Of a stretch of 64,000 nucleotides of DNA, positions 5,321-49,640 are shown piece after piece. The notes below the pieces were generated by a model that was not told the origin of the DNA, made no database searches, and was given only the letters and a program-made list of their open reading frames with translations. The position numbers were made by a program, and so were the translations under genes. Every line of letters starts with the position of its first letter. Positions within the stretch are counted from its first letter, which is position 1. The stretch is from Acidaminococcus fermentans DSM 20731 (GTDB lineage Bacteria > Bacillota > Negativicutes > Acidaminococcales > Acidaminococcaceae): assembly GCF_000025305.1 (NCBI RefSeq), contig NC_013740.1, positions 1,550,001-1,614,000 of the forward strand. Direction: 5' to 3'.

Positions 5321-5600
5321 GGATTTTGTCGTTTGTCGTTGAGGAAGCCAGATGCCGGGCATCTGGCTTTGAACGTATTGGCCCCCTGGGCGGCCGGGCC
5401 TGCGCCCCCTACGGTACCCCAATAGATCATTAGATTTCCGCCGTTCACAGGGCCGTGTCTAACTTCTTACCATCCCCCCAAAATCCCATTCATGCCGGTA
5501 AAATGCCCGATAATGACCTTCTTTTTCCAGTTGGGAAGGATTTTTTCTGTTCCATTCAGAAGAAGTTGTTAAGGCCGGACTATAATTGACCTAAAGGGGG
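5321..5600. other. gene-free spacer with a hairpin and one REP-like repeat
   Basis: No supported gene lies here. It contains a small hairpin (GCCAGATGCC/GGCATCTGGC, 5347-5367), a copy of the interspersed GC-rich repeat (5372-5425) and a short palindrome AATTGACC...GGTCAAATT (5584-5606) at the decayed end of the neighbouring pseudogene. Confidence 0.6.
5372..5425 (+). repeat. REP-like interspersed repeat
   Basis: This copy shares the leading AACGTATTGGCCCCCTGGGCGG block with the copy at 7158-7201 and the trailing CCCCCTACGGTACC block with the copy at 7276-7320. It belongs to the dispersed family described in the findings. Confidence 0.75.
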
Positions 5601-6514
5601 TCAAATTGAACCCGGGCTTGACAGGATCTTTTCATCACTGCCTTCCTGCCAGCCTTTCCGTGCGGCCAGTTCATGGATGACCCGGTTCCCCACTTTTGCT
5701 CAGTTCGTTCACCAGTTCCTGCTTTTCCTGGACTTTCCCCTTGTCAAAGATGGTCGCCAGTTTCTGGAGGCTGTTTTTCGTGTCCCGGTTCAGCTGTTTT
5801 ACCGGCTGGACCTGTTTTTCTCTCTCCCGGATGATGATACTTCCGACAGAGATACCGGCTTTTGTGGTGCTTTCTGCCCGTCCTTTGACAGTGCTCACCA
5901 CTTCAGGATAGAGTCCCCGTTCATTGAGTTTTTGCCGGTCTTCCTGTCCGGTCCGGGTGGTGGCAGAAAAAGCCACACCCTGTCCATCCGCTTTGTACGC
6001 CGCTTTGTTTTCCACATCTTCCCAGCTGAGGGTTCCCGTTTCCAGACAGTTCCTTTCTGCTGGCGCATCGCTGTCGATCACGGCTCCCTTCAAATGGGTA
6101 TTTCCCCTTGTCTGGATCCGGAACCCCTGGTCTCCTGCATAGATCCCCGCCTGTTCCGTCACGCTTTCGTAATCGGAACGGAGTGTCTGTTTCTGGGCGC
6201 TGCCCCTTCCGGAAACATGGCCTCCTCCGGCAGAGACGGAAATTCCCCCTCCTGTATTCCGGCTGTCATAGGTCTCCCGATCCTGGAGGCTTTCCAGGCG
6301 CAGATTTCCTCCAGTTTCCGCCTGTACCTGCCGGCCTTCCATCCGGCTGCCGTTCTCCCGGGTTTTCCAGCCTCTCCATCCGCTTTCTCTGTTCCTGTCT
6401 GGCCTGCTGCAGCTGTTCCTGCTGCAAAAATGGATTGGGCGCAGCAAAAACAGGGCATGCCGTCCCCCACAGCACACCCACTGCCCCTATAATCCCGGTC
6501 CATTGTCTCCCCAT
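5601..6514 (-). pseudogene. remnant of a two-partner secretion locus (hemagglutinin-repeat exoprotein)
   Basis: The minus strand carries three consecutive segments in different frames. The first (from ATG 6514 to about 6350) encodes a clear signal peptide, MGRQWTGIIGAVGVLWG and a VFA cleavage region, followed by a Gln/Arg-rich stretch like the mature N-terminus of FhaC/ShlB-type outer-membrane transporters. The second (about 6345 to 5671) has classic filamentous hemagglutinin C-terminal features: ETGGNLRLESLQD, SVTEQAGIYAGDQGF, GNTHLKGAVIDSD and TGTLSWEDVENKA. The third (about 5690 to 5601) continues in another frame with VIHELAARKGWQEGSDEKI, which normally follows in that family. At least two frame breaks and a large internal deletion make it non-functional. 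A good promoter lies upstream. A secreted adhesin or contact-dependent toxin was probably once encoded here. Confidence 0.8.
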
Positions 6515-6554
6515 GATCCACAATCCCCGTTGTTTGTTGATACTTTCTGGGTTC

Positions 6555-6583
6555 AGTATACCGTAAGGGTCTTTTTATGACAA
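6555..6583 (-). promoter_or_regulatory. promoter upstream of the secretion pseudogene
   Basis: On the minus strand TTGTCA (complement of 6578-6583) and TATACT (complement of 6555-6560) are separated by 17 bp, about 40 bp ahead of the signal-peptide ATG. The promoter looks intact although the gene is broken. Confidence 0.75.
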
Positions 6584-6651
6584 GATTTTCATTTTTTCAC
6601 AAAAATATTCATAAGGTGGTCAATCTCAGGGACCTGTGATACAATGAAAAA

Positions 6652-6733
6652 GAAGCTGTCCATTTGGTCAGCCCCGTTGGATTTTGGTTTAAGAAAACCC
6701 GCCTATCGTTTGTGACCGACGGCGGGTTTCCTT
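6652..6733 (+). ncRNA. candidate small RNA, unit 1 (possible orphan antitoxin)
   Basis: A promoter-like pair, TGGTCA (6617-6622) and TACAAT (6640-6645) with 17-bp spacing, is followed by about 80 nt without a credible ORF. The unit ends in a hairpin, AAACCCGCC (6695-6703) pairing with GGCGGGTTT (6721-6729). It is a paralogue of the next unit: both hold GCTGTC, GGTCAGCCCC, GAAA(n)CCGCCTA and GGCGG(G/A)TTTC(C/T)TTATGC in the same order. No hydrophobic ORF remains downstream on the opposite strand. The 5' end is inferred. Confidence 0.5.
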
Positions 6734-6789
6734 ATGCCCCCCTTATATACCTCTCTTGCAATCCCCTGTAACTGTGTTATAATGAAAAT

Positions 6790-6878
6790 ACAAATGGTGC
6801 TGTCTGGTGACGGTCAGCCCCATAGCAGTATATGGAAAGAAATCCGCCTACTGTTGGAAGCTGGAGGCGGATTTCTTT
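6790..6878 (+). ncRNA. candidate antisense small RNA, unit 2 (type I antitoxin-like)
   Basis: TTGCAA (6756-6761) and TATAAT (6778-6783), spaced by 16 bp, precede a unit of about 90 nt ending in a strong hairpin GAAATCCGCCT (6839-6849)/AGGCGGATTTC (6865-6875) with T-rich flanks on both sides. The unit runs towards, and ends on, the stop codon of the 22-residue hydrophobic ORF on the other strand. The shared hairpin would make the two RNAs overlap at their 3' ends. Its GCCCCAU could pair with AUGGGGU just upstream of that ORF's start. This layout matches fst/RNAII and txpA/RatA loci. It is prediction only. Confidence 0.5.
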
Positions 6879-6945
6879 ATGCACGAATTGCAACGATGAT
6901 TACGAAGAGGATTACCAAAAAGGTAAAAAAATCGTATTTCGTCAT
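6877..6945 (-). CDS. candidate 22-aa hydrophobic type I toxin peptide
   Basis: The ORF encodes a polar tip of about five residues (MTKYD), one hydrophobic helix (about residues 6-20, rich in Phe, Val, Ile and Leu), and a short tail with Arg21. Size and profile resemble Fst, TxpA or holin-like type I toxins, but I cannot tie it to a named family. The ATG at 6945 has GGGGTGGTG about 4-10 nt upstream, and that segment can pair with an upstream CCCCA (stem around GAGA), which would hide the ribosome site. The same frame is open upstream to 7068, but that extension lacks a ribosome site. The convergent small RNA at 6790-6878 ends on its stop codon. Confidence 0.45.
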   Translation of the reverse strand: MTKYDFFTFLVILFVIIVAIRA

Positions 6946-7007
6946 AGGGCACCACCCCATCTCTGGGGCAAGATTTGACCGCCTGCCGTATAGACAACAC
7001 CGTGTAC

Positions 7008-7016
7008 AGTATAACA
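7008..7016 (-). promoter_or_regulatory. extended -10 promoter for the hydrophobic peptide
   Basis: The minus strand reads TGTTATACT here, a TATACT box with the TGn extension, about 65 nt upstream of the peptide ATG. No good -35 box is visible. Confidence 0.4.
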
Positions 7017-7033
7017 TACATTGAAACAAGAAG

Positions 7034-7157
7034 GGGGTGTGAAAAAATGCTTTTTCACACCCCGTCACTAGTCACTAGTCTCTAGTCACTAGCCGATGGA
7101 AGCCAGCTGACGCAAGCGAAATAAAGGCGCTGTGGATGATTTTTTCACAGCGCCTTT
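7034..7157. repeat. composite hairpin-heptad-hairpin element, copy A
   Basis: A 13-bp hairpin (7034-7063, GGGGTGTGAAAAA arm) is followed by four heptads of GTCACTA/GTCTCTA type (7064-7091), the CCGATGGAAGCCAGC block, and a second 12-bp hairpin (7123-7157, AAAGGCGCTGTG arm). The element at 18610-18831 has the same parts in inverted order with 18 heptads, so this is a dispersed composite repeat. Both hairpins have T-rich loops or flanks and may also terminate transcription. Confidence 0.75.
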
Positions 7158-7320
7158 AAACGTATTGGCCCCCTGGGCGGCCGGGATGGGTTCCCCTGCG
7201 GATTTCCATCAAACAATCGACTCGAATCCGTAGAGGCGGCTCAAAACTTCCGCGAAGCAAAATGTCGTCAGAACCGGTCTTGGCGGACCGCCCGGCATGC
7301 GCCCCCTACGGTACCGCAAT
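7158..7320 (+). repeat. two REP-like interspersed repeat copies
   Basis: Copies at 7158-7201 (AACGTATTGGCCCCCTGGGC block) and 7276-7320 (GGACCGC-CCGGCAT-GCGCCCC followed by CTACGGTACCGCAAT). Between them and the gene end at 7381 only short direct repeats of the CTCTGCACT type are seen, so 7158-7380 holds no gene. Confidence 0.7.
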
Positions 7321-7380
7321 GAATCGTTGGTTTCCCGCCGTCCAGCTCTTCACTCTGCACTCTTCCCTCTGCACTTGCCC

Positions 7381-8814
7381 TCAACCTTTCAGCAGCCTGT
7401 TCATTCCCTCACAGAACGCCGTCAGTTCTTTATCCGGACCGATGGTCAGGAATTTCCGGTTCCCGGGCTGCAGGGTGATTTTCCCGTTCCACATGCTGGT
7501 GGAAGGTTCCATCCGGCCGATTTCTTTGAGGGGAAACACTCCCTTTTCCGAGGAAATAAGCGCATCCCAGGTCAGGAGGAAGCCGTCCCGGGCGGTTCCC
7601 CTTACGGTTTTGTCGCAAAGGACAAGGATATCCTTCGGGTCCAGCCCATAGCTTTGGGCATAGCTGGACAGGGCATTGGCCATCTTCTTGGGCGGGATAT
7701 CAGGGGCGCAGTACAGATAGGTATTGGTTTTATTGACCAGGGGAGCCAGCTGCTGCACAAAGGCAAGGAGGGCTTCCCGGCCGGGTCCGTCAGAGGGCGC
7801 TTCTTTTGCGGCGGCCAGAGGTGCCCCGCATTGGGTACAGAACCGTGCCCCCGGTTTGGCCGGTGCGCCGCAGTGGGAACAAAAGCCTGCCGTTCCGCTG
7901 ACAGAACTGGCACCAGAAGCCAGGGGAGCCTCCTGCACAGAAGGCTGTGTTTCGGCAGCTGCCGGATGTCCGGATGGTTCCGTTTCCTCTTCTTCCTCAT
8001 CCTCATCCTCAAAGATGCCGTGCGCTTCGGCAAGATCGTATTCTTCCTTAGACAGGATCACTTCTTCTGACAGCCAGGAGGCAAAATTGGCATCCAGACT
8101 GCTGCAGTCACTTTCTTCAAAGGTACAAAGGACAAAACCCGTGTCACTCTGGAGCACACGATCCTGGTTCAGGAAGACCCGGCAGAAATCATCCACAAAG
8201 GCTTTTTCCCCTTGTGAGGTAAAAATATCCCCTTCGTCTGTCAGAAGGAACCCTTTCTTTCCCTTTCCCCAGAGCAGGGCGTTGGTGGCATCACAGAGCA
8301 GCAGAACTTCAGAGCGGTCCACACCCAGCCGGCTGCCGTAGGCCTTCATGGCGTTTTCCAGAAGGTCTCCAGGGATATTGTCCCCCAGATAGTAATGGCT
8401 GCCTTCAAGCTGAGCCCCATGCTTGCTTTCCAGATAGGCCAGAAGGTCCGGATATTCACCGGCAGCCTTCAGGCAGATCCGGGCCGTTTTCGTTTCCTCT
8501 GTTTCCGGCTGGAGGCTGGCCGCCCGTTCATACCAGGTCATGGCCTTCCCATAATCGTAACAGTCTTCCAGATCCTGGTTGCCCCGGATAGCCGCAGCCT
8601 TCACTATGGCTTCGGCATTTTCACCTTCCGCTGCCTCTTCGTAACAGCCCAGGGCCTCCTCAAAGCGTCCTGCCGCCTGGAATGCGTCTCCCAGGGCCAG
8701 GTCCACCTGCTCCAGGGGTTCCCGGGCCTCATCCAGACCACCTTCCCGTGCTCTGCCCAGCAGTTCCCGGGCTTTTTCCAGATCCTTTGCGCAGCCTTCC
8801 CCCCTTCCCGGCAC
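7381..8814 (-). CDS. 3' part of a frameshifted zinc-ribbon/Sel1-repeat protein
   Basis: This frame continues the upstream gene's Sel1/TPR repeats after a frame break in a run of six C at 8799-8804 (six G on the coding strand). It opens with CAKDLEKARELLGRAREGG, a textbook Sel1 unit. After the repeats come a first globular domain (IPGDLLENAMKAYGSRLG through LLLCDATNALLWGKGKKGFLLTD), an acidic stretch, a second double zinc ribbon (FCSHCGAPAKPGARFCTQCG), and a second copy of the globular domain (IPPKKMANALSSYAQSYG through LVLCDKTVRGTARDGFLLTW). The apparent start at 8814 is an artefact of the open frame. Function is unknown; the architecture suggests a scaffold or stress-signalling protein. Confidence 0.75.
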   Translation of the reverse strand: MPGRGEGCAKDLEKARELLGRAREGGLDEAREPLEQVDLALGDAFQAAGRFEEALGCYEEAAEGENAEAIVKAAAIRGNQDLEDCYDYGKAMTWYERAASLQPETEETKTARICLKAAGEYPDLLAYLESKHGAQLEGSHYYLGDNIPGDLLENAMKAYGSRLGVDRSEVLLLCDATNALLWGKGKKGFLLTDEGDIFTSQGEKAFVDDFCRVFLNQDRVLQSDTGFVLCTFEESDCSSLDANFASWLSEEVILSKEEYDLAEAHGIFEDEDEEEEETEPSGHPAAAETQPSVQEAPLASGASSVSGTAGFCSHCGAPAKPGARFCTQCGAPLAAAKEAPSDGPGREALLAFVQQLAPLVNKTNTYLYCAPDIPPKKMANALSSYAQSYGLDPKDILVLCDKTVRGTARDGFLLTWDALISSEKGVFPLKEIGRMEPSTSMWNGKITLQPGNRKFLTIGPDKELTAFCEGMNRLLKG

Positions 8815-11201
8815 AGACCGGCCTGGAGGCAGGCCTGGGGATCGTTGGCAGCGGCCCCTTTCTGGTACCAGGCAAAGGCTGCTTCTCCATGGCCGGCCCG
8901 GGCTTCCTCCAGTCCCATCCGGGTACAGGCCGGTCCAAAGCCTTTCTCAGCGGCCCGGCGGATCAAGCCGTCCGCCCCTTCCTGATCCACGGCAGTCCCT
9001 TTTCCGCTTTCTTTCAAAAGAGCCAGTTCCCAGCAGCCTTCCGGACTGCCGCAGTCCACCGACTCTTCATACAGGGTGCGGACTTCTGCCCAGTCCGTTG
9101 CTTCCTCCTGCCGGAGTCTGGCCGCCTCTTTCAGGTCCCAAATCCCCAGGACCCTCCGCGCCTCCTCATAGCCCAGTCCGGCACTGCGGCGGAGATAGTC
9201 AAGGGCCCGTTCTTCGTCACAGTCTCTGTATTTCTGATAGTTGCGGAACAGCGTCTCCTGGAATTCAGGGGTATGGAGGGCCTTCCGGGTCCGTTCCAGG
9301 GCTTCTGCCGCCCCGGCGATCCCCAGGACAGCTGCCTGCTCATAATATTTTGCCGCCTTGTCAAAATCCTTTCCATCTTCCATTTCCGTTCCGGTTTCAT
9401 AGAGTTCGCCCAGCTGCATGCTGGCTTCTCCCTGGCCGCCTTTGGCTGCCGCGAACAGGTAATCGGATTCCGGGGATCCATCCTGGACACTCTGCCGGTA
9501 GAATTCCCAGGCCGCATCGGGGTCTCCCAGTTCTGCCGCCGTCTGGAGCCATTTGGACGCTTCTTCCGGTTCTCCCAGATTCCGACAGACCAGCCCCAGC
9601 CGGTACATGGCTTCCCGGTCGCCCATATCCGCTGCCGCCTGGTAAGAAGCCGCCGCCTGCTGCTGTTCTCCCTGGTCCAGGGCCTTTTGGGCGTCCTGTT
9701 TGAACGTTTCCACCTGGGCTGCCGCCACTTCCCCATAAGGCGGGGCGAACCGGATCTCATAGAAACGGATTTTCTTGGCTGCAAAGTCGATGGGTTCCGT
9801 CCCTTTGTAAGCAAAATGGAGCTGGTCGCCGAACCCGTAATAGGAAACCTCTTCCAGATCCGGGTAAAAAGGAAGGGTCACGCCGCTGGCATCGACCAGG
9901 ACAATCCGGAGTCCCTCATACCCCTCCGGATACTCCCGCATCAGGTACCGCAGCACGGCCATTTCCTCCGGTGTCCGGACGGCATACCCTCTTTCGACGC
10001 CCAGGCAGTCCACCCACCGGGGAAACGCAATGTCGCCTTTCTGATGGAGGTCCTGCCACAGGCTTCCGGCCAGGGAAAGACCTTCCCCTTCCGTATCCGC
10101 CACGTCCAGGATATCCGGAATGGCATCCGGCGCCAGCTTGGCCATGGCAAGATAAACGGAAAAAGTGGCTCCGGTCTGGGTCAGGCATTCACAAAGGGTC
10201 TCCATGGCCTTCTCATTGCTGTACCGGCCATTTTCCAGCATCACCTGGAGGTTGTCCATCCGGCTTTTGACTTCTTTGGTCCGGAAGTGGAAGGGGGGCA
10301 GCTTGTGGCTGTCTTCCAGGACATGGACCAGTTCGTTGACCAGCCAGACGGAAATGATGTTGTCTGCAAGGCTGGCTCCCATCCCTGCATAGTTGTGGCT
10401 GTCCAGACGCTGCCGGATGAACCGCTGGGCCCGGCCGGAATAGGTATTGCCGGTAACGGCCCGTCCCAGGGCGCTCAGTCCGTCGGAAGCCATGTTCAGC
10501 ATGCCGGCTTTCACCGCTCCGGTGATGGCCCCGGTGATGCCAAAGCCGCCTCCCTGCCAGTGGGCCTTGTTCATCTCTTTTTCCTCTCCCAGCTGCTCCA
10601 GATAGCGGGAAATCGCCGCCTGGTCTTCGGCCAGCTCCCGGACCAGGTCGGTTTCCTTGTACTGCTCAAAGAGTTTGTCCAGCAGATCTTTTTTACTGAC
10701 AAAATCGATGCCGTGATCCATCAGGGCTTCCACCGCCGCATCCATGGCAGGCTCGCAGGCATCGAAGATAATCCGGGTCAGGAATTCCACCAGGGCGGCC
10801 GGGTCCGTATAGTCCTCCACATGGAGGTGTTCCCGGATATACTTCCCCACCAGCCGTCTCTGCCGGGCCCCTTCCCGGTTGAAGGGAGCCCACAGCTGCC
10901 GCCGCAGGGCCAGCGGCCGGGGAAAATCAATGGGATATCTGCCAAGGATGAGGGCATGGCTGCCCGGCACCTCCGGCAGGGTTTCCTTTTTGGGTGCAGG
11001 GACGGGCTCTCCCCCGGTCTGTCCGGCCCCGGCGGAGGCGGCCGGAACGGCGTTCTGGACGACCGGTGCCGCATCTCCCTTTTCCGCTGCCGGCGCCTGT
11101 TCCGGTGCATCGTCCGTTGCCAGATCAGGCACCCTGGCCCCGCAGTTGAAACAGAATTTTGCCCCATCGGGCAATTTCGTACCACAATTTATGCAAAACA
11201 T
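8604..11201 (-). CDS. 5' part of a frameshifted zinc-ribbon/Sel1-repeat protein
   Basis: The N-terminus is a double zinc ribbon, CINCG and CFNCG (residues 3-24), followed by a low-complexity Ala/Glu/Pro linker. Then come an alpha-helical region with a Gly-rich hydrophobic stretch (GGGFGITGAITGAVKAG, about residue 215) and an uncharacterised domain to about residue 500. Sel1/TPR-like repeats of the A-x-W/Y-y-x-x-AA-x-x-G-x-x-x-A kind run to about residue 800. The reading frame then loses homology: the last 65 or so residues of this frame are shadow, and the repeats resume one frame over in the adjacent ORF. The intact protein would be about 1,270 residues. The ATG at 11201 has a GAGGAGGA site. 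No partner gene is nearby. Confidence 0.78.
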   Translation of the reverse strand: MFCINCGTKLPDGAKFCFNCGARVPDLATDDAPEQAPAAEKGDAAPVVQNAVPAASAGAGQTGGEPVPAPKKETLPEVPGSHALILGRYPIDFPRPLALRRQLWAPFNREGARQRRLVGKYIREHLHVEDYTDPAALVEFLTRIIFDACEPAMDAAVEALMDHGIDFVSKKDLLDKLFEQYKETDLVRELAEDQAAISRYLEQLGEEKEMNKAHWQGGGFGITGAITGAVKAGMLNMASDGLSALGRAVTGNTYSGRAQRFIRQRLDSHNYAGMGASLADNIISVWLVNELVHVLEDSHKLPPFHFRTKEVKSRMDNLQVMLENGRYSNEKAMETLCECLTQTGATFSVYLAMAKLAPDAIPDILDVADTEGEGLSLAGSLWQDLHQKGDIAFPRWVDCLGVERGYAVRTPEEMAVLRYLMREYPEGYEGLRIVLVDASGVTLPFYPDLEEVSYYGFGDQLHFAYKGTEPIDFAAKKIRFYEIRFAPPYGEVAAAQVETFKQDAQKALDQGEQQQAAASYQAAADMGDREAMYRLGLVCRNLGEPEEASKWLQTAAELGDPDAAWEFYRQSVQDGSPESDYLFAAAKGGQGEASMQLGELYETGTEMEDGKDFDKAAKYYEQAAVLGIAGAAEALERTRKALHTPEFQETLFRNYQKYRDCDEERALDYLRRSAGLGYEEARRVLGIWDLKEAARLRQEEATDWAEVRTLYEESVDCGSPEGCWELALLKESGKGTAVDQEGADGLIRRAAEKGFGPACTRMGLEEARAGHGEAAFAWYQKGAAANDPQACLQAGLCREGGKAAQRIWKKPGNCWAEHGKVVWMRPGNPWSRWTWPWETHSRRQDALRRPWAVTKRQRKVKMPKP

Positions 11202-11515
11202 TTGTTGTCCTCCTCTGGATAGAGCGTTTTCCGGGTCCTCTGGCCCATTGCAATCCTCTGTCCCTACTCTACCATAACCGGGCGAAGAAAAAAAGTATCC
11301 TCTGGCGGGCCGCCCGGCATGCGGCCCCTACGGGGTTGGGATCAGGAGCCAGATTCGTCCTTTGGCGGGGCGCCCGGCGTGCGGCCCCTACGGGTTCGCA
11401 AGGAATCTGACGTTTTCCTTCTTTCCTCTTCCTTTACGGATAATCGTTCTTTATGTTATAAATTTCCCATTCTTGCATTGTTTTATGATTTTCGTGAATC
11501 TGAAAGGAGACCTGT
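11202..11515. other. intergenic region with two REP-like repeats
   Basis: The 313-bp gap between divergent genes carries tandem REP-like copies at 11301-11340 (GGGCCGC-CCGGCAT-GCGGCCC) and 11361-11400 (GGGGCGC-CCGGCGT-GCGGCCC). It ends in AT-rich sequence (11430-11500) likely to hold the promoter of the WG-repeat gene. No gene is seen. Confidence 0.7.
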
Positions 11516-12979
11516 ATGCACCGATCTTCCCTGAAATCCTCTTTGCTGGCCGCTGTCCTGGCGGCTTCCTGGGCTCTGCCCCTTTCTGCTTCGGCGGAAA
11601 AGCCGGCGGAGATCTATTCCCATGAACACCGGGAATCCCACACCACCACCCGGACGGAATCTTCCACTCGCACCTCGTCTTCCACCACTTCCACCCACAC
11701 CAGCAGCAGCGTCAATGTGGACAAGGCCGGCACCGCGGAGATCCTGGGCGGGCTCCTGGTCCCCAACCCCAACCGGAAGGTGCCGGGGTTGGTCCGTGCG
11801 GCCCGGGAAAGCCTCCTGGCCCCGGTGTTTGCCGGACGGGACAGCAAGGGCCTGTGGGGGCTCTGGGACGCCCGGGGACGGGAAATCCTGGCACCCCGGT
11901 ACAACTCCCTGGAAGCGGCTTCCCAGGGCCTCCTGGCGGCCCGGGAGGGCAAGAAGGACCTGCTGTACTTCACCCGGGAAGGCCGGCCGGCCCAGGCTCC
12001 TGCGGCGCCGGATGCCCTCATCCCCTCCAAGGAAAAGGGCCGCTGGGGCTTCCGGGATGCCAATCAGCGGACGGTGCTGGCTCCGGTGTACCGGGAAGTA
12101 CGGGGGGATTTCAGCGAAGGAATCGCCTTTGTGGTCAATGCCCAGGGCAAATCCGTGGCCATCGATACCCAGGGCCGGGAGCTGTTTGCCGCCCCCTATG
12201 ACCAGGTGTTCCCCTTCCAGGATGGCCTGGCGGAAACCCGGCGCACGGTCCGTTCCTTCAACTGGGCCACTCTGGCCAGCGCAACCCTGGGAGCGGCTTT
12301 CTGGGACCACAGTGTGTATATGCCGGACCAGCCCCTGAGCCTGACCTGGGACGGGGTGAAGCGGGGCTACATCGACCGGACGGGCCAGGTGATCGTGGAT
12401 GACCGGAATGACGCCGTGTTCCCCATGACCCTCTGGGGGACCTTTGTGAAGGACAAGGGAGAAATGTGGTTTGTGGACCGCCAAGGCCGGGTGCTGTTCG
12501 GGCCGGGGAAATACGACATCGACGGCGGCGGTCTGGACGAACAGGAAGGACTGGCGGCGGTCCTGGACAAAGGGACCCGGAAATACGGGATCGTGGACGT
12601 AAGCGACGGCTCCCTGCGCCTGCCCTTTGCCTGGGACGGGGTCCAGTTCCTGGGACGGCAGCGGATGCTGGTGAAGGAAGGGTCCATATCCCGGCTGGTT
12701 TCTGAAACCACCGGACAGGTGCTCCGTACCTGGCAGCAGCCGGTGACCCTGACCCCCTTTGGCAGCCAGGCGGAAACCACCTGGATCCGGGAAGGAAAGA
12801 CCTGGAAGCTGATGGACCGGGATGGGGAGATCCTCCCTGCCCGGGTCCCGGACGGAGTGACCCAGACCGGTTCCTTCCAGGGACAGGCGGCCCCGGCCAA
12901 AGGAAAACAGGGCTGGGGGCTCATGGATGGCCAGGGCCGCTGGCTGGTCCAGGGGCTGAAGGAGATCCACAGCCTGTAA
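11516..12979 (+). CDS. exported WG-repeat protein
   Basis: The 487-residue protein begins with a signal peptide (MHRSSLKSSLLAAVLAASW, cleavage near ASA-EKPA). Next comes a Ser/Thr/His-rich low-complexity linker (about residues 33-65) and then repeated beta-hairpin units ending in W-G or Y-G, such as GLWGLWDARGREILAPRYN, GRWGFRDANQRTVLAPVYRE and KQGWGLMDGQGRWLV. These are WG (KWG) repeats, found in many bacterial surface or periplasmic proteins of unknown role. The ATG at 11516 has AAAGGAG about 8 nt upstream. It is a single-gene unit between two repeat-filled gaps, divergent from the Sel1-repeat gene. A binding or envelope role is inference. Confidence 0.82.
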   Translation: MHRSSLKSSLLAAVLAASWALPLSASAEKPAEIYSHEHRESHTTTRTESSTRTSSSTTSTHTSSSVNVDKAGTAEILGGLLVPNPNRKVPGLVRAARESLLAPVFAGRDSKGLWGLWDARGREILAPRYNSLEAASQGLLAAREGKKDLLYFTREGRPAQAPAAPDALIPSKEKGRWGFRDANQRTVLAPVYREVRGDFSEGIAFVVNAQGKSVAIDTQGRELFAAPYDQVFPFQDGLAETRRTVRSFNWATLASATLGAAFWDHSVYMPDQPLSLTWDGVKRGYIDRTGQVIVDDRNDAVFPMTLWGTFVKDKGEMWFVDRQGRVLFGPGKYDIDGGGLDEQEGLAAVLDKGTRKYGIVDVSDGSLRLPFAWDGVQFLGRQRMLVKEGSISRLVSETTGQVLRTWQQPVTLTPFGSQAETTWIREGKTWKLMDRDGEILPARVPDGVTQTGSFQGQAAPAKGKQGWGLMDGQGRWLVQGLKEIHSL

Positions 12980-13030
12980 GGGAGCTGGGAGAAGGCATCA
13001 GCCTGTTGGCCATAAGAAGAACGATCCAGG

Positions 13031-13075
13031 TGCCAGGCGGGCCGCCGGTTGTGCGGCCCCTGCGGATTCGCAATG
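13031..13075 (+). repeat. REP-like interspersed repeat
   Basis: GGGCCGC-CGGTTGT-GCGGCCC followed by CTGCGGATTCGCAATGGATC, a diverged copy of the dispersed hairpin family, 50 bp after the WG-repeat gene's stop. Confidence 0.75.
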
Positions 13076-13193
13076 GATCTTTCAATTTCGTTGTCCTGCC
13101 AACAGATTTTTTCTGTCCCTGGGGCTATACTGGAACCATCAAAGGGACCGGGGAACAATGAACCGGGACCCGGAAAAAGGGGAGTGTTCCATT

Positions 13194-13388
13194 ATGAAAT
13201 TCAAAGTCAATCAGGATACCTGTATCGGATGCGGGCTGTGCGAAGGCACCTGCCCGGCAGTATTCCACATGACGGATGCCGGGGTGGCGGAAGCCATTCC
13301 CGATGATGTTCCGGCTGGCGAAGAAGCCAACGCCCAGGCAGCCCTGGAAGGGTGCCCGGTGGGAGCCATTGAAAAGGTGGAAGGATAA
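13194..13388 (+). CDS. small ferredoxin, [4Fe-4S]
   Basis: A 64-residue electron carrier. MKFKVNQDTCIGCGLCEGTCP gives a CxxCxxC ligand set with a further CxxxCP, and a distal CPVGAI supplies the fourth ligand, the pattern of single-cluster clostridial or Thermotoga-type ferredoxins rather than the 2x[4Fe-4S] type. The C-terminal half is acidic as usual. The ATG at 13194 is preceded by AAGGGGAG; an in-frame ATG at 13158 has no ribosome site. It stands alone and ends in a strong terminator. Likely partners are ferredoxin-dependent oxidoreductases or the [FeFe]-hydrogenase implied by hydE, which is inference. Confidence 0.92.
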   Translation: MKFKVNQDTCIGCGLCEGTCPAVFHMTDAGVAEAIPDDVPAGEEANAQAALEGCPVGAIEKVEG

Positions 13389-13390
13389 AG

Positions 13391-13420
13391 AAAAAGACCG
13401 GCGGCCTGCCGGTCTTTTTT
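13391..13420. terminator. bidirectional terminator after the ferredoxin
   Basis: AAAAAGACCGGC pairs with GCCGGTCTTTTT around a GGCCT loop, giving U-runs in both directions. It can serve the ferredoxin and the convergent amidohydrolase gene. A second GC hairpin (GGGCTGCTG/CAGCAGCCC, 13453-13478) and short GTCAACGGTCAGC repeats fill the rest of the gap. Confidence 0.9.
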
Positions 13421-13482
13421 TGTCAGCTGTCAACGGTCAGCGGCCGTTGACAGGGCTGCTGCCCATGCAGCAGCCCCTTTTT

Positions 13483-14916
13483 TTACAACTTCGGCAGCTT
13501 TTCCACTCCCGCCACCGGGCAGTCGTACTGGCCATTGTTCTTGGCCTGGAACTCTTTTTGGGCGGCGGCCAGACGGTCCGGGTCTTCCAGGAGCTTCACC
13601 GCGGTCAGGGCGATCACCTTGCCGGCGGTGAGCATCCCCTTCTGGCCGATGGAGGAATTCACCTGGCCGGTTTTGTACCAGGAGTGGCCGGGGGTGCCCA
13701 TGGCTTCGGTGGCCACGTTGAAATAATAGGTGGGCGCGATGAAGCCCACGTCCCCCACATCCGTGGAGCCGAAATCCAGTTCTTCCCGGTCCGGGTCGAA
13801 ATCCTTGATATCCGTATCCAGGGGTTGGGCCAGCTTTTCTTCCAGCCGGTCCCGGCCGTACCGTTTCAGGATGGTCTGCTTTTCCTTCTCCTTCATGCTG
13901 TCGCTGAAGGAATCGGTAAAGGCTTTGGCCAGGGCAAAGTCCCGGTCATCCCATTTTGGCACCCCGATGGCGTGGAAGGCCTCGGTGGCCGCCTGGGCCA
14001 GCACCTGGTTGTTGATGTATTCGGAATAGCCGGATTCCCGTTCCACCGTGACCTGGGTGCCGCAGATAAGGGCTGCTCCCCGGGCCACATCGTCCAGCCG
14101 GGGAACGATCTCCTTCACCTGCCGGTAGTAGGGAGCCCGGACCACATAGCGCACCGCGGCATGGTCCTGGACCACGTTGGGTGCCCGGCCTCCCACATCC
14201 AGATAAGCGTAGTGGATCCGGGCTTCCATGATCACGTGCTCCCGGAGGTAGTTGGCCCCCACCCCCATGATCTCGCAGGAATCCAGGGCGCTGCGGCCCA
14301 GTTCCGGAGCGCCCCCGGCGTGGGAAGTGATGCCCTTGAATTTGTAGGTCCGGCACACGTTGGCGTTCAGATGGGGCGTGGCGGTACGGTTTTCCGGAGC
14401 GGGATGCCAGGTAAGGAAGAAGTCCACCCCGTCAAAGGCGCCGTCCCGGGCCATAAAGGCCTTGCCGCTGAGGTTTTCTTCCGCCGGGGTACCGAAATAC
14501 ACCACGGTGCCCGGCTGCCCCGTTGCTTCCAGATAATCCTTCAGGGCCAGGGCGCCGGCCAGGGCCCCGGTGCCCAGCAGGTTGTGGCCGCAGCCATGGC
14601 CGGCACATCCTTCATGTTCCGGTTTCTTCACCGGGCAGCCGGCTTCCTGGCTGAGGCCGGGCAGGGCGTCGTATTCTCCCAGGATCCCCACCACCGGTTT
14701 CCCCTGGCCCCAGACTCCCTTGAATGCCGTGGGGATGTTCACCAGATTCCGGGTGACGGTGAAGCCGTGGCGCTCCAGAGCCTGGCACAGGGTTTCTGCG
14801 GACTGTTTCTCCTCATAGCCCACTTCCGCCAGTTCCCAGATCTGCCGGCTCAGGTCCACCAGTTCGTCCCGGTACCGGCCGTCCACCGCCTGTTCAATGA
14901 TTTTCTGTGCATCCAT
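13483..14916 (-). CDS. M20 family amidohydrolase, AbgB-like
   Basis: A 477-residue zinc-dependent amidohydrolase of the M20 peptidase family. Visible metal-site motifs are GHGCGHNLLGTGALAGAL (about residues 105-125, with the H-x-C-G-H core), YFGTPAEE (about 140) and the dimerisation-domain FKGITSHAGGAPELGRSA. Length and motifs best match p-aminobenzoyl-glutamate hydrolase subunit B, which releases glutamate from folate breakdown products; aminoacylase-like substrates are also possible. The start at 14916 (MDAQKII) is chosen because family similarity begins there; a GGGAG lies 12 nt upstream. The open frame extends about 96 bp further without homology. Glutamate release would suit the glutamate transporter gene gltS in this window, which is inference. 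Confidence 0.85.
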   Translation of the reverse strand: MDAQKIIEQAVDGRYRDELVDLSRQIWELAEVGYEEKQSAETLCQALERHGFTVTRNLVNIPTAFKGVWGQGKPVVGILGEYDALPGLSQEAGCPVKKPEHEGCAGHGCGHNLLGTGALAGALALKDYLEATGQPGTVVYFGTPAEENLSGKAFMARDGAFDGVDFFLTWHPAPENRTATPHLNANVCRTYKFKGITSHAGGAPELGRSALDSCEIMGVGANYLREHVIMEARIHYAYLDVGGRAPNVVQDHAAVRYVVRAPYYRQVKEIVPRLDDVARGAALICGTQVTVERESGYSEYINNQVLAQAATEAFHAIGVPKWDDRDFALAKAFTDSFSDSMKEKEKQTILKRYGRDRLEEKLAQPLDTDIKDFDPDREELDFGSTDVGDVGFIAPTYYFNVATEAMGTPGHSWYKTGQVNSSIGQKGMLTAGKVIALTAVKLLEDPDRLAAAQKEFQAKNNGQYDCPVAGVEKLPKL

Positions 14917-49014: not shown

Positions 49015-49640
49015 TGGGCATTCTCCTTTGCTTCTTCACTGGGAACTTTTTCCGTTTTGGGCTTTTTGGGGGCTTTTTTGTTGAACTGCTGCATCAGTTC
49101 TCCCACCGCCGCCCCTTTCATCCAGGCTTCCACCGCATCGGCGGCCTGGTCCAGGGCTTCCTGGACCTTTTCCTTATCCTCCCGCTGGAAGGGATGGAGC
49201 ACATGGCTGATCACCGCCTGTTCCTGGTGCACCGGGTGGCCGATGCCCACCTTGATCCGGGGATAGGCCTGGCTGCCCAGGGCCCGCTCAATGGATTTCA
49301 GGCCGTTGTGGCCGCCGGAAGACCCTTTCCGGCGGATCCGCAGGGTCCCCACCGGCAGGTCCATGTCGTCCTGGATCACCAGCACGTCTTCCGGAGGGAT
49401 GTGATAGAAGTTGGCGAAATCCGCCACCGCCACTCCGCTGTTGTTCATATAGGTGGTGGGTTTGATCACCCAGCATTTTTCCGGCATGCGCTTTTCCAGG
49501 TAGAAGGCGTTGTCCGCCTTCCGCCAGGCCTCCGTGTCCCCCCAGCGCTCTGCCAGAAGGTCCGCGGTCATAAAGCCGATATTGTGCCGGGTGCCGGCAT
49601 ATTCCCGCCCGATGTTTCCCAGGGCAACCACTAGTTTCAT
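49011..49640 (-). CDS. pth: peptidyl-tRNA hydrolase
   Basis: Pth frees tRNA from peptidyl-tRNA released by abortive translation. The 209-residue chain shows LVVALGNIGREYAGTRHNIGFM with Asn and catalytic His (about residue 19), KPTTYMNNSG, DDMDLPVGTLRIR and GSSGGHNGLKSI. The C-terminal 20 residues form an unusual Lys/Glu/Pro tail beyond the normal end. prs-pth is the standard order; here a terminator hairpin separates them. Confidence 0.96.
   Translation of the reverse strand: MKLVVALGNIGREYAGTRHNIGFMTADLLAERWGDTEAWRKADNAFYLEKRMPEKCWVIKPTTYMNNSGVAVADFANFYHIPPEDVLVIQDDMDLPVGTLRIRRKGSSGGHNGLKSIERALGSQAYPRIKVGIGHPVHQEQAVISHVLHPFQREDKEKVQEALDQAADAVEAWMKGAAVGELMQQFNKKAPKKPKTEKVPSEEAKENAQ

Follow-up and report, generated by a model that had tools for sequence, protein, structure and literature searches.

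A one-base shortfall in a run of six G, probably private and not programmed, divides a zinc-ribbon/Sel1-solenoid gene in the deposited sequence of Acidaminococcus fermentans DSM 20731

The window examined here is a stretch of 64,000 nucleotides from Acidaminococcus fermentans VR4 (DSM 20731), corresponding to positions 1550001–1614000 of a genome that consists of a single contig of 2,329,769 bases. A gene on the minus strand, running from 11201 to 7381, switches reading frame at a tract of six C located at exactly 8799–8804 of the plus strand (six G on the coding strand). As the original prediction had described, the open reading frames on either side, 8604–11201 and 7381–8814, lie in different frames. 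The features of the gene are as follows.

8604–11201, minus strand: upstream frame, 865 aa; codons 1–799 homologous to relatives, codons 800–865 an out-of-frame tail
11133–11198, minus strand: N-terminal zinc ribbon (PF13240), upstream residues 2–23; 34.3 bits (cut-off 25)
8805–9734, minus strand: Sel1/TPR-like helical solenoid before the break; PF08238 at residues 592–624; modelled at residues 490–798 with pLDDT 65–94, most above 80
8799–8804, minus strand: run of six G on the coding strand where the frame breaks, one base short compared with the spacing in six clearly aligned relatives
7381–8814, minus strand: downstream frame, 477 aa when counted from the earliest possible start; shifted by -1 against the upstream frame and homologous with the C-terminal region of this protein in its relatives
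8407–8805, minus strand: helical solenoid continued after the break; modelled at residues 4–136, pLDDT 85–97 from residue 11, with TPR-type matches below cut-off
8062–8394, minus strand: predicted C-terminal alpha/beta domain, first copy (model; profile match to the second copy)
7816–7884, minus strand: second zinc ribbon (PF13240), downstream residues 311–333; 35.6 bits (cut-off 25)
7387–7779, minus strand: C-terminal domain, second copy, whose start matches BnzA profile positions 19–82 of 544

Profile searches agreed with the Sel1/zinc-ribbon make-up initially proposed, both PF13240 and PF08238 scoring above cut-off; the Sel1 profile PF08238 reached 31.6 bits against a curated cut-off of 30.7, which places the product among Sel1-repeat proteins, and solved Sel1-repeat proteins also match it by sequence. 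It resembles in these respects the known Sel1-repeat proteins with zinc ribbons, but differs from them in having a long middle region with no reported Pfam match and a duplicated C-terminal domain. The two copies of that domain match each other over 83 columns with 28% identity (profile comparison, E 1.7e-13), and the second zinc ribbon is missing from the aligned pieces L025, L026 and L027. The structural model of the downstream piece proceeds from the solenoid (to residue 136) through the alpha/beta domain, an acidic stretch of low confidence and the zinc ribbon to the second domain copy; that of the upstream piece is of low quality ahead of residue 490, with a mean pLDDT of 59.4. Judged from these models, the break appears to fall inside the solenoid. 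The best 50 fold matches per search with the downstream model were mostly helical-repeat (TPR/Sel1-like) proteins aligned within residues 1–278, a range that barely tests the C-terminal domains. No full-length match to a protein family was obtained in Pfam, NCBIfam or PADLOC, and nothing on the gene was found among the titles and abstract openings of the papers listed. From its domains, the whole protein is predicted to be a cytoplasmic binding scaffold.

The last domain matches positions 19–82 (64 positions) of the 544-position profile of BnzA, which together with BnzB makes up the Bunzi anti-phage system, with an E value of 6e-12, and the match was present in all six alignment members. Searching the whole genome with BnzA gave a match at positions 18–86, the sole one in the genome. 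A member of Bunzi would be expected to match along the whole of BnzA, whereas the best stretch here covers only about 64 of the 544 positions, and none of the seven nearby ORFs scanned (part of the neighbours) matches a defence family. We take the match to indicate a shared domain rather than Bunzi membership. The BnzA-start-like domain at 7387–7779 (minus strand) represents a possible link of the family to anti-phage proteins.

A GC-rich element of 37 bases, REP-like in appearance, occurs three times around the gene (7276–7312, 11298–11334 and 11358–11394), with copies 78–100% identical to the reference copy. The minus-strand ORF at 5671–6477 carries haemagglutinin repeats (PF13332), is only 268 aa long and is possibly a remnant. 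The flanks were also compared with those in G007, the closest relative, no closer genome having been found. Considering aligned pieces longer than 400 bases, the alignment skips 5398–7385 here against 11234–12063 in the joined G007 stretch. On the other side, 11217–13483 spans about 2.3 kb here against about 12 kb in G007 between aligned neighbours, marking this flank as a place of gain or loss.

The homology of the gene to its relatives ends at about codon 799 in one frame and is picked up again in the -1 frame. By BLASTP, upstream residues 1–810 match residues 1–810 of the G007 protein (L004) with 75% identity, and downstream residues 4–477 match its residues 800–1276 with 83% identity over 480 positions; the G007 protein has 1,277 aa, in good agreement with the full length of about 1,270 residues originally estimated. 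With each piece read in its own frame, third-position changes relative to G007 exceeded those at first plus second positions both upstream (250 vs 212) and downstream (101 vs 68). The out-of-frame tail matches shifted frames of G007 (46%) and G001 (45%), the latter containing stops, as is expected of related DNA.

Screening the 63 genomes of the order with a profile of the downstream piece (E 1e-10) identified the gene in nine, the present genome included, belonging to two genera. All eight other carriers possess a single open frame without stops of 1,187–1,361 codons, while the corresponding frame of the window's genome has 521, making it the only split gene among the nine. Full-length orthologues are expected of a frameshifted gene, whether a young pseudogene or an assembly error; the original prediction had named, as one half of a refuting outcome, relatives lacking any full-length protein, and the opposite was found in every carrier. 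The uninterrupted frames in all eight, together with the excess of third-position changes on both sides, confirm that the frame break is more than chance. Three of the nine same-genus genomes gave no match at E 1e-10 (one of the three is 85% complete), so loss of the gene is tolerated and the gene is dispensable in the genus.

The site of the break could be aligned clearly in six relatives. Preceding a shared GGC codon are GAA AAG GGA ACA in G007, GAA ACA GGG GAG in G001, CAA ACG GGC AGC in G002, GAA AAA GGA CAG in G077, and GCG GAA GGG ACC in both G020 and G080. All six relatives have nine bases separating the first of these codons from GGC; the window has eight, six of them G, which bears out the one-base shortfall that had been proposed. 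None of the six has a six-G run at this site. For G003 and G005 (L008 and L009), where alignment among the repeats is uncertain, the places first shown proved to be a neighbouring repeat and the codons adjoining the start of the downstream match were used instead; these contain no six-G run. G003 does have such a run about 44 codons further on, within its open frame. As far as the site is alignable, the G run at the break therefore appears private to the window. The record of A. fermentans WCA-389-WT-5B, which carries a protein identical to that of G007, is too distant, at 75–83% protein identity, to reveal tract variation within a strain or a close species. Further copies were sought among virus contigs (flank pattern with a variable gap, 0 matches) and plasmids (undivided 4 kb stretch as query, no match).

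Selection on either side of the break was assessed from dN/dS ratios. Relative to G007, the ratio was 0.285 over the 799 upstream codons and 0.264 over the 469 downstream ones; the corresponding values were 0.243 and 0.238 relative to G001, and 0.273 and 0.230 relative to G020. G002, the farthest of the four relatives compared, runs counter to this, with a higher value downstream (0.195) than upstream (0.145), at a saturated dS near 2. With L024 of G001 as outgroup, the upstream part has 46 private changes in the window and 49 in G007, and the downstream part 17 and 27, respectively. Had the downstream part been dead for long, the window should have gathered the larger share of changes, which it has not; there is no sign of decay relative to its closest relative. 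Hence the lesion is either very recent or does not exist in the organism itself.

The window contains 34 G/C runs of exactly six bases and none longer, which raised the suspicion of systematic undercalling of G/C runs. Genome-wide there are 764 runs of exactly six, 55 of exactly seven and 8 of eight or more, and the ratio of sevens to sixes (55/764, 7.2%) is ordinary, lying within the 2.6–9.8% range of nine other genomes (7/160, 5/109, 48/575, 21/214, 27/448, 5/189, 29/655 and 15/461 in G001–G008, and 8/116 in G020); systematic undercalling was accordingly rejected. Alignment with G007 was possible for 26 of the window's 34 runs and shows gaps at two of them, 8799 and 49538; at 49538 the gaps come after a run of six bases in both genomes.

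Other frame breaks were sought by comparing the window with 80 kb of G007, in which 10 of 54 ORFs were flagged in the window and 10 of 46 in G007. The flagged break at 1943–2984, followed base by base, was judged to be an antisense frame crossing a T run that separates two minus-strand genes, Pfam giving no match in the frames scanned; the remaining flagged ORFs, bar the six-G gene, were assessed by their coordinates only. A more stringent test requiring a third-position excess left 8 candidates among 256 coding-like ORFs in 244 kb of this genome, against 2 among 255 in 260 kb of G007. The six-G gene is the only long mid-gene break among the eight; of the other seven, three affect only the opening 16, 19 and 54 codons of stop-to-stop frames, possibly ahead of the start codon, one was flagged in both directions and three are short ORFs. 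One of these seven, a 172-codon ORF lying outside the window at 1638267–1638783 of the genome, shows a second possible frame break relative to G007, which could be real. This sample (244 kb here, 260 kb of G007) fails to separate error from mutation. Counts of gaps in the DNA alignment with G007 (366, of which 340 were not multiples of three) proved useless, most of those within the gene being close, mutually cancelling pairs.

Taken together, the results make it highly probable that the deposited VR4 sequence contains one chromosomal gene, encoding a zinc-ribbon/Sel1-solenoid protein of about 1,275 residues, whose frame is broken by a private and non-programmed shift of one base at a short run of G. 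The missing base would have dropped out of the homopolymer, whether in the assembly, as a 454 undercall that survived polishing, or in the strain, through a recent slippage mutation. We consider the two about equally likely, with a slight lean towards the assembly. Single-lesion frameshifted genes in finished genomes of the 454 era are either residual homopolymer errors or young pseudogenes. The present case is like others of this class in its one-base homopolymer break, intact relatives and well-kept sequence on both sides, and differs in nothing but the particular gene.

That the gene is intact in the living strain and was miscalled in a 454-based assembly has close to an even chance of being correct. 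The break sits at a G run and both of its sides are well kept. The genome report states that 454 and Sanger reads were assembled with Newbler and phrap, the 454/Newbler assembly being entered as pseudo-reads (PMC3035267). The error rate given there, below 1 in 100,000, corresponds to at most about 23 bases in the genome. Against a miscall, the same report describes polishing with Illumina data (PMC3035267), and seven-base runs are not scarce across the genome when set beside the nine others.

A recent slippage mutation that truly exists in the type strain, and would make the gene a young pseudogene, falls only a little short of an even chance. The Illumina polishing counts in its favour, as do the same-genus genomes that gave no match to the gene and the 75 pseudogenes reported for this genome (PMC3035267). 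However, the 469 codons past the break contain no second lesion and show no relaxed selection relative to G007. If the break is real, the product would end 66 codons beyond it, midway through the solenoid, and would have neither the second zinc ribbon nor either copy of the C-terminal domain.

Phase variation, in which the run would gain or lose bases and so toggle production of the full-length protein, is very improbable. Phase-variable contingency loci with poly-G tracts are of a known kind, and the break here likewise falls in a mononucleotide G run. Such a locus would be expected to have an unusually long tract conserved among relatives, but the run is six bases long and is missing from all six that align clearly; runs of this length are ordinary in both the window and the genome, and the domains look cytoplasmic. 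Of the three causes originally offered, recent knock-out and sequencing error both stand, whereas a tract that is private, short and commonplace lends phase variation no support. We give similarly little weight to a G run newly arisen in the VR4 lineage as a translational or slippage switch, through which a truncated solenoid and the whole protein would both be made, although this would account for the constraint beyond the break. Programmed -1 ribosomal frameshifting on the run, again yielding a short and a full-length product, is the least probable explanation: the shift needed is -1, GGG GGG permits partial re-pairing of tRNA and constraint persists downstream, but the codons GGG GGG AAG presumably match no standard slippery heptamer, the predicted folding of the 109 nt that follow is no better than that of shuffled sequences (z +0.79, 154 of 200 shuffles folding at least as well, in a test covering pseudoknot-free structures), and the split frame and slippery site expected to be common to relatives are absent, all eight reading in a single frame and the six clearly aligned ones lacking the site.

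For annotation, the two frames in the reference type strain are pieces of a single gene that is kept whole in its relatives. The case also cautions against inferring phase variation from a short run in one 454-era assembly. The family itself, which combines zinc ribbons, a long Sel1/TPR solenoid and a duplicated C-terminal domain that includes a BnzA-like part, is patchily distributed in the order, occurring in 9 of 63 genomes.
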